From: Lachnospiraceae bacterium
GTDB taxonomy: Bacteria; Bacillota; Clostridia; Lachnospirales; Lachnospiraceae
Direction of reading: 5' to 3'
Assembly (NCBI GenBank): GCA_024698075.1
Contig: JAILRP010000096.1
Span: forward strand, 1 to 46,411
Length of the DNA stretch: 46,411 nt
Positions 26,170 through 31,648 of the stretch are shown piece by piece (positions within the stretch are counted from its first letter, which is position 1; each line of letters begins with the position of its first letter). Below the pieces are notes generated by a model. The model made no database searches. It was not told the DNA's origin and was given only the letters and a program-made list of their open reading frames with translations. Position numbers and translations under genes: made by a program.

Positions 26170-27201
26170 ATGAAACCAAAATCGCTCATCATCATAATAT
26201 CGGCGGCCATGTTCCTTGGCGGATGCGCTTCATCAGACCGGACGGAGCCCATAACCGCGGCACTTTCCGGCGGAGACTTTGCCGGCGCCGCATCGCTTGC
26301 TGATGAGGCGTGCGCCACATTCGGAAGGGATAAGATGCTCTGCCGCCTCCGGGGGATAGCGCTCCTCGGTGAGGGGGACAGCGAAAAGGCAGAGGAGGCA
26401 TTCCTTGAGGCGCTCACATATTCGAACGGGATAGTCGAACAGACCGACATAGATATTTCCTATTACCTTGCGGTCGCCCAGTACAAGAATGATGACCTTG
26501 AAGCGGCTCATTCGACGGCGGATGCGATACTCGCCATAAGGCCGGATGATGACGGTGCTTATTATCTGCGCGGCAAGATAGGGCTTGAGATGGGAAGGAA
26601 GGACGAGGCGCTGAGCGATTTTGACCGCACGGTCGCCCTTGCCCCGAATGACTATGACAGATATGTGGGGATATATGAGGAGCTTCACGCAAGGGGATAC
26701 GATTCCGAAGCTGCCTCGTATCTTGAGAAGGCGATGACCGGAGGCAGCCGCCTGTCCGATTACAACAAGGGAGTGCTCGAGTATTATCTCGGTTCATACA
26801 CGGATGCGAGGAATGATCTTGAGAACGCCAAGAAGGGCGGAAGCAGCGAGAACCTTATCCTGTATCTCGGTAGGACATATGAGGCGCTGGGCGATGCGGG
26901 CTATGCCATGTCGCTCTACGAGGAATACATCCGTTCCGACTCTTCGGCAGGCCACGTGTACGAGCAGCTTGCAAAGTGCCGGATGGCGGGAGGCGACTAC
27001 GAGGGGGCGCTCGAGGCCATCGAGGCCGGACTGTCGCTCGGAGGCAAGGGAGCCGAGCGCGAGCTCATGTTCGACCGAGTGGTCGCATGCGAGAACCTTT
27101 ATGATTTTTCGTCCGCGAAGAAATATATGGAAGAATACGTGGCTCTTTACCCCGATGACGAGGTCGCCAGACGCGAAAATGTTTTCCTCAGCAGCAGGTA
27201 A
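26170..27201 (+). CDS. Tetratricopeptide-repeat lipoprotein
   Basis: 343 residues. The signal peptide ends in LGGC, so C19 is the likely lipid-modified residue. The rest is a run of about eight 34-residue TPR-type helical pairs (for example the segments around AYYLRGKIGLEMGRKDEALS and the later YEALGDAGYAMSLYEEYI), giving a protein-binding superhelix on the outer membrane face. Such proteins assemble surface or envelope complexes; the partner is unknown. The ATG at 26170 follows a GGAAGAG site; an in-frame ATG upstream lies in the divergent TraX gene. A terminator follows, about 60 bases after the stop. Confidence 0.87.
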   Translation: MKPKSLIIIISAAMFLGGCASSDRTEPITAALSGGDFAGAASLADEACATFGRDKMLCRLRGIALLGEGDSEKAEEAFLEALTYSNGIVEQTDIDISYYLAVAQYKNDDLEAAHSTADAILAIRPDDDGAYYLRGKIGLEMGRKDEALSDFDRTVALAPNDYDRYVGIYEELHARGYDSEAASYLEKAMTGGSRLSDYNKGVLEYYLGSYTDARNDLENAKKGGSSENLILYLGRTYEALGDAGYAMSLYEEYIRSDSSAGHVYEQLAKCRMAGGDYEGALEAIEAGLSLGGKGAERELMFDRVVACENLYDFSSAKKYMEEYVALYPDDEVARRENVFLSSR

Positions 27202-27261
27202 AAAATCTCCGGCGATTTTTGTGCATGGTTTACAATAATTTTTAATAACTCATGTTTTTTG

Positions 27262-27296
27262 ACGGATGACGGTGGGCAAAAATCATCCGTTTTTTA
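27262..27296 (+). terminator. Rho-independent terminator after the TPR lipoprotein gene
   Basis: ACGGATGA (27262-27269) pairs with TCATCCGT (27283-27290), followed by a run of T residues. Confidence 0.88.
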
Positions 27297-27362
27297 TTTT
27301 CGTTTTCGGACAAACCGTGAAGTTTGCGCGGTTTCGGGCGCCTCAATCACATAAGATCAAAA

Positions 27363-27378
27363 ACACAACATATAGTGG
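27363..27378 (+). promoter_or_regulatory. NrdR-like box 1 ahead of nrdD
   Basis: Matches the 16-base NrdR consensus ACACwATATATwGnGT at 14 positions. NrdR is the zinc/ATP-cone repressor that binds tandem boxes upstream of ribonucleotide reductase genes. Confidence 0.72.
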
Positions 27379-27380
27379 TC

Positions 27381-27398
27381 ATGTTAAAAAGTTAACAT
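27381..27398 (+). promoter_or_regulatory. Rex-like palindrome ahead of nrdD
   Basis: ATGTTAA-N4-TTAACAT is a perfect 7-bp dyad that matches the Firmicute Rex site TTGTTAAnnnnTTAACAA at 12 of 14 fixed positions; only the two outermost bases differ. Rex senses NADH/NAD+. The site overlaps the start of NrdR-like box 2. Confidence 0.6.
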
Positions 27399-27410
27399 AA
27401 GATATGGTAT
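27395..27410 (+). promoter_or_regulatory. NrdR-like box 2 ahead of nrdD
   Basis: A weaker match (12 of 16) starting exactly 32 bases after box 1, the three-helical-turn spacing known for paired NrdR boxes. It ends 7 bases before the -35. Confidence 0.6.
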
Positions 27411-27417
27411 TTTCGTG

Positions 27418-27446
27418 TTGACTATTGAAAAGGTCAATGATATACT
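27418..27446 (+). promoter_or_regulatory. Promoter of nrdD
   Basis: TTGACT (27418-27423), 17 bases, TATACT (27441-27446) with an extended TG at 27438-27439. Start expected near 27453. Confidence 0.85.
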
Positions 27447-27511
27447 TTTTTTCGGATTTCAAATCTTAAGAGGGGTCTGCAAACTGTCTTATCAGGAAGG
27501 GAGTAGTCAGA

Positions 27512-29902
27512 ATGTTCAGCGTAGTAAAACGAGACGGGGAATTAGCGGATTTCAATATCGCAAAGATCAGCGATGCGATAATGAAAGCCTTTAATGCGTG
27601 CGAAAAGCAGTATACCAATGACATGATCGATATGCTCAGCCTGCGCGTTACCGCGGATTTTCAGCCGAAGATGAAGGAGAATTCGGTACAGGTGGAGGAT
27701 ATCCAGGACAGCGTCGAGGTAGTGCTCGAGCAGGCGGGATACAATGATGTGGCAAAGGCATACATACTTTACCGCAAGCAGCGCGAGAAGATGCGCAACA
27801 TGAAGTCCACGATACTCGACTATAAGGATGTCGTGAACAGTTATGTAAAGGTTGAGGACTGGAGAGTCAAGGAGAACTCTACGGTCACATATTCGGTAGG
27901 AGGGCTCATCCTCTCCAATTCCGGTGCGGTCACCGCCAACTACTGGCTGTCCGAGATATATGATGAAGAGATCGCGGAAGCGCACAGGAATGCCGACATC
28001 CATATCCATGACCTGTCGATGCTTACCGGCTACTGCGCAGGATGGTCATTAAAGCAGCTCATCCAGGAAGGCCTCGGCGGCATCAGCGGCAAGATCACAT
28101 CCGCGCCCGCATCGCACCTGTCGGTACTGTGCAACCAGATGGTCAATTTCCTCGGCATCATGCAGAATGAGTGGGCTGGTGCGCAGGCATTTTCATCATT
28201 TGATACTTATCTTGCTCCTTTTGTAAAGGCAGACAACCTTTCCTACAGGGAGGTCAAGAAGTGCATAGAGTCTTTCGTATACGGAGTCAATACTCCGAGC
28301 CGCTGGGGAACACAGGCACCTTTCTCGAACATCACGCTTGACTGGACGGTTCCCGCAGACCTTGCCGAGCTTCCGGCACTTGTCGGCGGTAAGGAAATGG
28401 ATTTCAAGTACAAGGACTGCAAGGCCGAGATGGACATGATCAACAAGGCGTTCATCGAGACCATGATCGAAGGAGATGCAAACGGCAGGGGATTCCAGTA
28501 TCCGATCCCGACTTATTCGATCACACGTGATTTTGACTGGTCAGATACGGAGAACAACAGGCTCCTGTTTGAGATGACCAGCAAGTACGGAACACCGTAT
28601 TTCAGCAATTATATCAATTCGGACATGGAGCCGTCGGATGTGCGCAGCATGTGCTGCAGGCTCCGTCTTGACCTGCGCGAGCTTCGCAAGAAGACCGGCG
28701 GATTCTTCGGTTCGGGCGAATCGACCGGTTCGGTCGGTGTCGTCACGATCAACATGCCGAGGATCGCATATCTCGCAACCGACAAGGATGATTTCTACAG
28801 AAGGCTCAACAGGATGATGGACATCTCCGCAAGGTCTCTCAAGATCAAGCGCGGCGTCATCACACGTCTTCTTGACGAGGGACTGTATCCTTATACGAAG
28901 AGATATCTCGGAAGCTTTGACAATCACTTCTCGACGATCGGGCTCATCGGCATGAACGAGGTCGGCCTCAATGCCAACTGGCTCCGCGCCGACATGACCG
29001 ATGTAAGGACGCAGGAGTTCACGAAGGAAGTACTCAACCATATGCGCGAGAGGCTGTCCGACTATCAGGAGATGTACGGCGATCTTTACAATCTCGAGGC
29101 AACACCGGCTGAGTCAACGACATACCGTCTGGCCAAGCATGATAAAAAGCGCTGGCCGAACATCAAGACTGCGGGCCATCCCGGAGATACTCCGTATTAC
29201 ACGAACTCGTCACACCTTCCGGTTGACTATACGCCCGATATATTTGATGCCCTCGACATACAGGACGAGCTTCAGACACTTTATACGAGCGGAACGGTAT
29301 TTCATGCATTCCTCGGAGAGAAGCTTCCCGACTGGAAGGCAGCCGCATCACTCGTACATACGATCGCGGAAAATTATAAGCTTCCTTACTATACCTTAAG
29401 CCCTACTTATTCCGTCTGCCGTGAGCACGGATACCTGGCCGGCGAGGTCAAGACCTGTCCTCACTGCGGAACGGCGACCGAGGTATACTCGAGGATCACG
29501 GGCTACTACCGTCCGGTACAGAACTGGAACGACGGCAAGAGCCAGGAATACAAGAACAGGGTTGTTTATGACATAGCCAACAGCAGCATGAAACGTCCGT
29601 TGACCGCGGTAGTCAAACTGTCCGGAACCGACAGCAATTCAAAAGTTGAGGTAGAACCGGTCGAGAACGTCAGATATCTGTTCACGACCAAGACCTGCCC
29701 TAACTGCAAGCTTGCGAAGGAATACTTAAAGGACGTCAGCTACGTTCTCATCGATGCCGAGGAGAATGCCGAGCTTGCCGCGAGGTATGGTGTCATGCAG
29801 GCACCCACGCTCGTTGTCGTCTCCGGCGACAAGGTGAGGAAATATGCAAACGCCTCGAACATACGCAAGTATGCCGAGACCATGGAAATGGTAACGGTAT
29901 AG
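27512..29902 (+). CDS. nrdD: Anaerobic ribonucleoside-triphosphate reductase fused to a redoxin domain
   Basis: 796 residues. Residues 1-90 are an ATP-cone (VVKRDGELADFNIAKIS) for allosteric control. The catalytic barrel follows, with SMCCRLRLDL and TGSVGVVTINMPR; the zinc site has C636, C649 and C652, and RITGYYRP contains the glycyl-radical residue G664. From about residue 722 a glutaredoxin/thioredoxin-like domain of ~75 residues is fused, with a C729-P-N-C732 active site and a cis-proline region APTLVV. Most NrdD proteins end just after the glycyl radical. It makes dNTPs without oxygen. The activase gene nrdG is not next to it: a terminator follows and pyrF is the next gene. Control by NrdR and perhaps Rex is suggested by the upstream sites. 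Confidence 0.97.
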   Translation: MFSVVKRDGELADFNIAKISDAIMKAFNACEKQYTNDMIDMLSLRVTADFQPKMKENSVQVEDIQDSVEVVLEQAGYNDVAKAYILYRKQREKMRNMKSTILDYKDVVNSYVKVEDWRVKENSTVTYSVGGLILSNSGAVTANYWLSEIYDEEIAEAHRNADIHIHDLSMLTGYCAGWSLKQLIQEGLGGISGKITSAPASHLSVLCNQMVNFLGIMQNEWAGAQAFSSFDTYLAPFVKADNLSYREVKKCIESFVYGVNTPSRWGTQAPFSNITLDWTVPADLAELPALVGGKEMDFKYKDCKAEMDMINKAFIETMIEGDANGRGFQYPIPTYSITRDFDWSDTENNRLLFEMTSKYGTPYFSNYINSDMEPSDVRSMCCRLRLDLRELRKKTGGFFGSGESTGSVGVVTINMPRIAYLATDKDDFYRRLNRMMDISARSLKIKRGVITRLLDEGLYPYTKRYLGSFDNHFSTIGLIGMNEVGLNANWLRADMTDVRTQEFTKEVLNHMRERLSDYQEMYGDLYNLEATPAESTTYRLAKHDKKRWPNIKTAGHPGDTPYYTNSSHLPVDYTPDIFDALDIQDELQTLYTSGTVFHAFLGEKLPDWKAAASLVHTIAENYKLPYYTLSPTYSVCREHGYLAGEVKTCPHCGTATEVYSRITGYYRPVQNWNDGKSQEYKNRVVYDIANSSMKRPLTAVVKLSGTDSNSKVEVEPVENVRYLFTTKTCPNCKLAKEYLKDVSYVLIDAEENAELAARYGVMQAPTLVVVSGDKVRKYANASNIRKYAETMEMVTV

Positions 29903-29917
29903 AAAATGTACCCATTG

Positions 29918-29947
29918 ATCCTGCCCAGATGCTGGGCAGGATTTTTT
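29918..29947 (+). terminator. Rho-independent terminator after nrdD
   Basis: A perfect 10-bp stem (29918-29927 with 29933-29942), 5-base loop and a T-run. It ends shortly before the pyrF ribosome site, so pyrF needs read-through or a promoter not recognised here. Confidence 0.93.
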
Positions 29948-29964
29948 AAAGACAGGAGAAGAAT

Positions 29965-30894
29965 ATGATATCACGCCTTGTAGACGCCATCAGAAAAAAA
30001 GACGCCCCGATAGTTGCCGGACTCGACCCGATGCTCTCATATATCCCGAAGCATCTAATCGAAAAGGCGGTAAAGGAACGCGGGGAGACTTTTGAGGCCG
30101 CGGCCGCTGCGGTACTTGAATACAACCGCGCGATAATCGACAGCATATGCGACTTAGTCCCGGCGGTAAAGCCGCAGATAGCCATGTACGAGCAGTTCGG
30201 GATCCCGGGCCTTGAGGCTTTCATGAAGACGGTAGAATATGCTCATTCCAAAGATCTTATCGTGATAGGCGACGTAAAGCGCGGGGACATCGGCTCCACA
30301 AGCGAGGCTTATGCGAATGCCCACATAGGAAACGTCACGGTAGGGAGCACGTCGCTTCCCGTATTTGACGAGGATTTCTGCACGGTCAACCCTTATCTCG
30401 GATCGGACGGCATCAAGCCTTTCATAGAGGCCTGCAATAAAAATGACAAGGGCATATTCGTGCTCGTCAAGACGAGCAATCCGTCAAGCGGGGAGTTCCA
30501 GGACAGGGTGCTGCACGATGAGGATTCCACGCTCTACGAGGCGGTCGGGTTCAAGGTGAGCGAATGGGCGTCCATGTCAATGGACGGATCATACAGCAAC
30601 ATAGGTGCCGTTGTCGGTGCCACATATCCGAAGATGGGCGAGATACTCCGCCGCATAATGCCGAAGTCATACATACTCGTTCCCGGATACGGCGCGCAGG
30701 GAGGGACCGGCGCAGACCTTGTGCCGTTCTTTGACAGCGACGGGCTCGGTGCGATAGTCAACAGCTCACGCGGGATCATCGCCGCATACAGGAAGGAGAA
30801 ATATTCGAAGTACGGGGAGGAAGGCTTTGCGGATGCCGCAAGGGCAGCCGTCCTCGACATGAAGGAAGACATACGCGTGAACGTGTTCAAGTAA
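29965..30894 (+). CDS. pyrF: Orotidine 5'-phosphate decarboxylase (long, type 2)
   Basis: 309 residues, the longer PyrF subfamily common in clostridia and actinobacteria. VAGLDPML near the start binds the phosphate, VIGDVKRGDIGST contains the catalytic D103 and K105, and VPGYGAQGG binds the nucleotide phosphate near the C-terminus. It converts OMP to UMP, the last step of pyrimidine synthesis. AGGAGA lies before the ATG. No own promoter was recognised between the nrdD terminator and the start. pyrE, which makes its substrate, follows after a hairpin-containing 79-base gap. Confidence 0.95.
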   Translation: MISRLVDAIRKKDAPIVAGLDPMLSYIPKHLIEKAVKERGETFEAAAAAVLEYNRAIIDSICDLVPAVKPQIAMYEQFGIPGLEAFMKTVEYAHSKDLIVIGDVKRGDIGSTSEAYANAHIGNVTVGSTSLPVFDEDFCTVNPYLGSDGIKPFIEACNKNDKGIFVLVKTSNPSSGEFQDRVLHDEDSTLYEAVGFKVSEWASMSMDGSYSNIGAVVGATYPKMGEILRRIMPKSYILVPGYGAQGGTGADLVPFFDSDGLGAIVNSSRGIIAAYRKEKYSKYGEEGFADAARAAVLDMKEDIRVNVFK

Positions 30895-30908
30895 TGCGAA
30901 GTTTATAA

Positions 30909-30939
30909 GGGCAGAGGATGGCGGCATATGCCACTGCCC
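30909..30939 (+). other. Hairpin in the pyrF-pyrE gap
   Basis: GGGCAG (30909-30914) pairs with CTGCCC (30934-30939) and TGGC (30919-30922) with GCCA (30930-30933), with a 4-base bulge. There is no T-run, so it is not a terminator; an mRNA processing or stability element is possible. Confidence 0.5.
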
Positions 30940-30973
30940 GCCGGAATACAGGAGCATGGGAGGAATGTGCGCC

Positions 30974-31648
30974 ATGGAGCGTTACAAGGAAGAATTCATA
31001 GAGTTCATGGTTGAATCGGACGTTTTAAAGTTCGGCGATTTTACGTTAAAGAGCGGCAGAAAGTCGCCTTTTTTCATGAATGCGGGAGCATATGTGACCG
31101 GTAGCAGCCTAAAGCGGCTCGGCGAGTATTATGCCAGGGCGATCCACGAAAACTTCGGGGATGATTTTGACATACTGTTCGGACCTGCATATAAGGGGAT
31201 TCCCCTTGCGGTGACGGCCGCAATAGCGTATTCCGAACTATATGGGCGCGATGTGAAGTACAGCTGCAACCGCAAGGAAGCCAAGGACCACGGCGATGCC
31301 GGGATACTTCTCGGAAGCCCGATAAAGGACGGCGACAGGATCGTCATGATCGAGGACGTAACGACCTCGGGCAAGTCGATAGAAGAGACATATCCGATCA
31401 TCAGCGCACAGGGCGATGCGAAGATCGTGGGGCTCATGGTGTCCTTAAACCGCATGGAGGTAGGACTTTCAGGGAAAGCGGCGGCGCTTGACGAGATAAA
31501 GGAAAAGTACGGTTTTGACGCATCCGCCATTGTGACAATGGCCGAGGTGACCGAGTACCTTTACGGCCGAAAGGTCGGCGGAAGGGTGGTCATAGATGAT
31601 GACATCAAAAAAGCGATAGACGAATACTACAGCAGGTACGGAGCATAG
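30974..31648 (+). CDS. pyrE: Orotate phosphoribosyltransferase
   Basis: 224 residues from ATG 30974. FTLKSGRKSPFFMNAG at the start and the PRPP-binding loop RIVMIEDVTTSGKS near residue 125 identify OPRT, which joins orotate to PRPP to give OMP for PyrF. Three in-frame ATGs occur (30956, 30965, 30974); only the last lies at a proper distance (9 bases) from the GGGAGGA ribosome site, as the other two overlap or touch it. The stop codon is immediately followed by the ATG of a small membrane protein gene, implying co-transcription. Confidence 0.95.
   Translation: MERYKEEFIEFMVESDVLKFGDFTLKSGRKSPFFMNAGAYVTGSSLKRLGEYYARAIHENFGDDFDILFGPAYKGIPLAVTAAIAYSELYGRDVKYSCNRKEAKDHGDAGILLGSPIKDGDRIVMIEDVTTSGKSIEETYPIISAQGDAKIVGLMVSLNRMEVGLSGKAAALDEIKEKYGFDASAIVTMAEVTEYLYGRKVGGRVVIDDDIKKAIDEYYSRYGA

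Follow-up and report, generated by a model that had tools for sequence, protein, structure and literature searches.

Is the nrdD gene of an uncultured Lachnospiraceae controlled by one repressor or by two? The window analysed here, a 46,411-nt stretch of contig JAILRP010000096.1 (assembly GCA_024698075.1), contains upstream of nrdD a pair of NrdR boxes with a Rex-like palindrome between them. On the basis of the sequence, the initial annotation had proposed that, if both act, NrdR and Rex would compete at one overlapping site, with deoxynucleotide supply set by both the dNTP/ATP level and the NADH/NAD+ ratio. Dual repression would tie DNA-precursor synthesis in this anaerobe directly to the fermentation redox state and the dNTP pool, and the locus would then offer a clean case of an operator evolving from sequence that flanks another. 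With NrdR as the sole repressor, the locus would be one more well-kept NrdR promoter, of use chiefly as a caution that sequence beside an NrdR box can mimic half a Rex site.

The host genome (G000) consists of 2,489,061 bases in 105 contigs and is 94.3% complete. It contains a single nrdR gene, on another contig than nrdD, and a single rex gene; the absence of either regulator, which the initial annotation had named as grounds for rejecting its proposal, is thereby excluded. The encoded NrdD shares 96% identity with its counterpart on contig RUG12067.

Organization of the nrdD control region

The region is made up of the following features, from the first NrdR box to the end of the gene:

27363..27378, + strand: NrdR box 1, ACACAACATATAGTGG, matching the consensus ACACWATATMTWGTGT at 14 of 16 bases and present in all 13 close promoters
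27379..27394, no strand: 16-base spacer between the NrdR boxes, giving a box offset of 32
27381..27398, no strand: Rex-like dyad ATGTTAA-AAAG-TTAACAT, matching the Rex consensus TTGTTAANNNNTTAACAA at 12 of 14 bases
27395..27410, + strand: NrdR box 2, ACATAAGATATGGTAT, matching at 12 of 16 bases, or 13 of 16 when read on the other strand
27418..27446, + strand: sigma-70-type promoter, TTGACT-17-TATACT with TG before the -10 element; TTGAC is kept in 13 of 13 aligned promoters
27495..27503, + strand: probable ribosome binding site GGAAGGGAG, judged by sequence, with the start codon 8 bases on
27512..29902, + strand: nrdD, class III ribonucleotide reductase of 796 aa, with ATP-cone, NRDD and C-terminal glutaredoxin/thioredoxin-like domains

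The two 7-bp arms of the dyad are perfectly complementary, and bases 27395-27398 belong both to its right arm and to box 2. The TTGACT of the promoter begins 7 bases past box 2. On recount, the coordinates, match counts, overlap and distances of the initial annotation proved exact to the base. The left end of box 2 reads ACAT, not ACAC, in all 13 close promoters, and the GGAAGGGAGTAG of the probable ribosome binding site shows no change across the 13 aligned promoters. As for RNA elements, a scan of 26900-28200 gave no terminator-like site, and 27100-27600 had no Rfam match at E values up to 1.

To gauge chance expectation, we used 310-nt Markov promoters of the same base make-up (n = 20,000). 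A single NrdR site of at least 14/16 arose with P = 0.0005, and a pair with a summed score of at least 26 at offset 31 or 32 arose in none of the 20,000, while a Rex match of at least 12/14 had P = 0.009. These rates place the NrdR pair far beyond chance and the Rex match moderately so. A bare 7-bp dyad arose with P = 0.043 when the gap was 4 bases and with P = 0.24 for any gap of 0-8 bases, and thus the perfect dyad by itself is weak evidence.

The NrdR box pair is widely conserved

The accessible text of PMC9110341 describes the dATP/ATP-loaded NrdR tetramer as binding a box pair separated by some three helix turns, and that of PMC12051234 reports good binding to pairs with 14-17 bp spacers and also to pairs with 24-27 bp spacers. 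As far as these sources describe the box pairs of ribonucleotide reductase promoters, the nrdD region shares with them the two 16-bp boxes, the 16-base spacer spanning about three helix turns, the position upstream of a ribonucleotide reductase gene and the presence of nrdR in the genome. It differs from them in that box 2 has T for the first conserved C and that, in a few species here, the spacer holds a Rex-like dyad.

Within the window, the nrdD pair ranks first with a sum of 27 (either strand allowed), the runner-up reaching 23. Conservation upstream of nrdD in relatives, by which the initial annotation proposed to judge its sites, holds for NrdR at both ranges examined. The pair is present in all 13 close promoters (the host's own and those of 12 relatives), at offset 32 in ten and at offset 31 in three. 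For the family, 229 nrdD promoters were read (sets of 119 and 30 promoters, plus 80 stretches), and 204 were kept after 25 near-copies, including those of the sister species G006 and G022, had been dropped. With a pair defined by a sum of at least 25 of 32 at an offset of 30-33, it precedes 157 of these 204 distinct Lachnospiraceae nrdD genes, leaving 47 without a pair at this threshold, and it occurs in 0 of 1020 Markov controls. A TTGAC starts 6-8 bases past box 2 in 101 of the 157 paired promoters and elsewhere in 21; the remaining 35 have none within 60 bases.

Together, the nrdR gene, the known box spacing and the conservation of the pair, both close and family-wide, strongly support this half of the initial proposal, and nrdD is almost certainly under NrdR control. 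Judged by its sequence, the NrdR half is an ordinary promoter of a known kind, widely kept.

A candidate Rex site in the spacer

For the dyad, a Rex matrix was built from ten distinct forms of the thl-crt-hbd promoter site in the genus, with the nrdD sites excluded. Across 30 genus promoters, the thl-crt-hbd site matches the Rex consensus at 12 or more of 14 bases in 27, at 11 or more in 29 and at 8 in one. The nrdD dyad scores 16.4 bits by this matrix, a value attained in 4 of 5000 Markov promoters; the next site in the window has 10.2 bits, and the thl sites range from 18.3 to 23.7. Three places in the host genome lie within two mismatches of the Rex consensus, namely nrdD and the promoters of thl-crt-hbd and of a NuoE/NuoF-type operon, the latter two being usual classes of Rex target (NuoE was assigned by Pfam, and the other genes of both operons were named by eye from their translations). 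The only perfect matches to WTGWYAANNNNTTAACAW in the genome are those at nrdD and thl; relaxing the search to one mismatch gives 6 places, against 3 control matches. The dyad ranks first in the window by matrix and is one of two perfect genome matches to this pattern.

Two further measures were tried and set aside. Counting consensus matches alone (at most two mismatches) was dropped as evidence, with 3 places against 2 in the reversed control for the host genome and 594 against 505 for 37 genus genomes. A permuted-motif enrichment, in which a count of 7 of 168 at 12 bits or more was matched by none of 300 permutations, was overstated: the right arm was not fixed and species copies were included.

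The Rex-like dyad is kept in few species

Whereas the NrdR pair is present in all 13 close promoters, the Rex site is strong in 4 of them (the host's own, G006, G001 and G008), and weak in G020 and G022 (10.6 bits); the remaining 7 have no in-register site, none exceeding 2.4 bits. Within the close group, the conservation sought for both sites is thus complete for NrdR and partial for Rex. The four carriers do not form a clade in the 13-row nrdD tree, where 3 changes are required and one change suffices in none of 200 bootstrap trees, though 5 of the 10 inner branches lack resolution. The carrier count refers to this 13-row tree, as a 15-row tree sets the carriers against G020 and G022 only.

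One possible explanation is that NrdR alone controls nrdD and the dyad is fortuitous, its right arm being what usually flanks box 2 and its left arm having arisen by chance in a few related species. TTRACA lies over the border of spacer and box 2 in 20 of the 157 paired promoters, including 9 from outside the genus; a left arm lifts the score to 10 in only 4 of these 20, the other 16 having the right arm without the left. As TTRACA commonly flanks NrdR box 2, the right arm of the dyad does not count as independent evidence for Rex. At this base make-up, the probability of a left arm of at least 6/7 is 0.004 per fixed position, which is not negligible across many species, and the scattered occurrence of the strong site in close relatives fits the same explanation. 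The left arms of G001 and G008 retain 5 of 7 bases, no better than the sequence around them. The 16-base spacer is identical in G000 and G006, as are 97 of 111 upstream bases and 45 of 48 leader bases in a gapped alignment; similarity is lower in the spacer between -35 and -10 (10 of 17) and in the 50-base stretch preceding box 1, where 26 of 41 aligned bases agree. Because most of the intergenic region is conserved too, the identity of the spacer is weak evidence. An argument from changed flanks around a conserved site, in which about half of the flanking bases differed between G000 and G006 in an ungapped comparison, was dropped, as the gapped alignment shows most of the region to be conserved.

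However, a fortuitous dyad does not readily account for a matrix score far above that of the remainder of the window, nor for the letter changes in G001 and G008. Their left arms have two altered letters each, yet score 16.5 and 13.7 bits (centre-masked matrix); among the 189 possible double changes, 2 score as high for G001 and 24 for G008. Nor is the narrow spread peculiar to nrdD. Among 16 close orthologs of the NuoE-type operon, the Rex-like site reaches 12/14 or more in only two, G000 and G006, the same species that share the nrdD spacer, and Rex regulons are described as highly variable in the accessible text of PMC8457756. In view of these parallels, and of that in PMC8593685 discussed below, the narrow species spread alone would not refute a Rex site. 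Control by NrdR alone is a serious possibility, at somewhat less than even odds.

Another explanation, which we consider improbable, is that the AGTTR before ACATAAGATAT extends the NrdR site to compensate for a poorly matching left half of box 2, or belongs to the site of another protein, the left arm being incidental: AGTT, A or G and ACATAAGATAT are indeed constant in the 13 close promoters even where the left arm is missing, and TTRACA crosses the spacer/box 2 border in promoters outside the genus, but this accounts for the right half only and leaves to chance both the left-arm match to the Rex matrix and its kept score.

Across the family, spacers reaching at least 12 bits occur in 6 of the 157 paired promoters and in four lineages, which are the host's own group (three after removal of near-copies), L067, L070 and L242. 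The expected number is 0.24 when the whole spacer is shuffled, 0.36 when only its left part is shuffled and 0.91 when the left part is borrowed from another promoter, suggesting a surplus of Rex-like spacers that is present but small. The NrdR pair itself is weak in L070 and L242 (sums of 26 and 25).

Comparison with known Rex operators

Compared with the clostridial Rex operators TTGTTAANNNNTTAACAA, as presented in the accessible parts of PMC8457756, the nrdD dyad contains the complete inner TGTTAA-N4-TTAACA, a rex gene is present, and the other matches in the host genome sit at usual Rex targets. In contrast, the outermost bases of the dyad are A and T rather than T and A, the target is nrdD, and the site lies upstream of the -35 element. 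The Rex sites of the thl and NuoE-type promoters are placed differently, either across the promoter or at or past the -10 element.

A closer parallel in position is srrAB of Staphylococcus aureus, for which the accessible text of PMC8593685 puts Rex sites some 20 bp ahead of the -35 element, one of them over the site of another regulator, with incomplete conservation in sister species. The nrdD site resembles these in its position before -35, in the overlap with a regulator and in its incomplete conservation. It differs in that the partner at srrAB is the activator SrrA, and in that Rex binding is reported for that promoter, whereas at nrdD it is predicted from the sequence. The accessible parts of PMC8593685, PMC12051234, PMC8457756, PMC4289295, PMC3616900, PMC3828012 and PMC9110341 do not name nrdD as a Rex target; an earlier prediction of the link is possible.

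In the NuoE/NuoF-type operon, the Rex-like site TTGTTAAAAATTTCACAT lies across the promoter (L153, 1924-1941; G000:C77:22923-22940).

A possible dual control of nrdD

The reading we favour, with a probability of about 0.45, is that of a standard NrdR-repressed nrdD promoter which, in the host species and a few near relatives, would carry a Rex operator inside its spacer. Upon a rise in dATP, NrdR tetramers loaded with dATP/ATP would occupy both boxes and repress transcription, following the mechanism in the accessible text of PMC9110341. At low NADH/NAD+, Rex would bind 27381-27398, 19 bases upstream of the -35 element, and add to or replace this repression. Full joint occupancy by NrdR and Rex is probably impossible because the two sites share 27395-27398.

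Of the dual NrdR/Rex control proposed initially, the NrdR part is strongly supported. The Rex part is plausible given the rex gene, the matrix score and its retention in G001 and G008, but just 4 of the 13 close promoters have the strong site, and one half of the dyad amounts to box 2 flank. That a Rex operator works at nrdD in the host species stands a little short of an even chance. Competition between NrdR and Rex in vivo is doubtful, and the evidence does not reach as far as the claim that both signals set dNTP supply at one overlapping site. It is tempting to speculate that a Rex operator was grafted into the NrdR spacer when a left arm was gained opposite the TTRACA flank, so that the repressors would compete and dNTP supply would answer to both dATP/ATP and NADH/NAD+, although we regard this full scenario as rather unlikely. 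Other Lachnospiraceae, namely L067, L070 and perhaps L242, may have acquired similar grafts independently. The Rex-like dyads upstream of nrdD in L067 and L070, which lie in or across the NrdR spacer, are apparently apart from the group of the window.

Genes around nrdD and further NrdR-like pairs

The C-terminal glutaredoxin/thioredoxin-like domain of NrdD contains a CPNC motif and is encoded at 29572-29899. The activase gene nrdG is absent directly after nrdD (window 29903-31648); this interval holds genes for an orotidine-5'-phosphate decarboxylase and then a phosphoribosyltransferase.

The host genome encodes a second class III reductase (L147, G000:C70:36000-39200), which belongs to the other NrdD subtype and is followed by a radical-SAM activase-like frame. 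In the promoter of this second gene, the NrdR-like pair is weak, with a sum of 25 at offset 32, and a Rex-like site is absent (2.7 bits). A further pair lies at the start of contig C44 (L148, 57-103; G000:C44), where a perfect NrdR box at 88 has a partner 31 bases before it, with a sum of 28.
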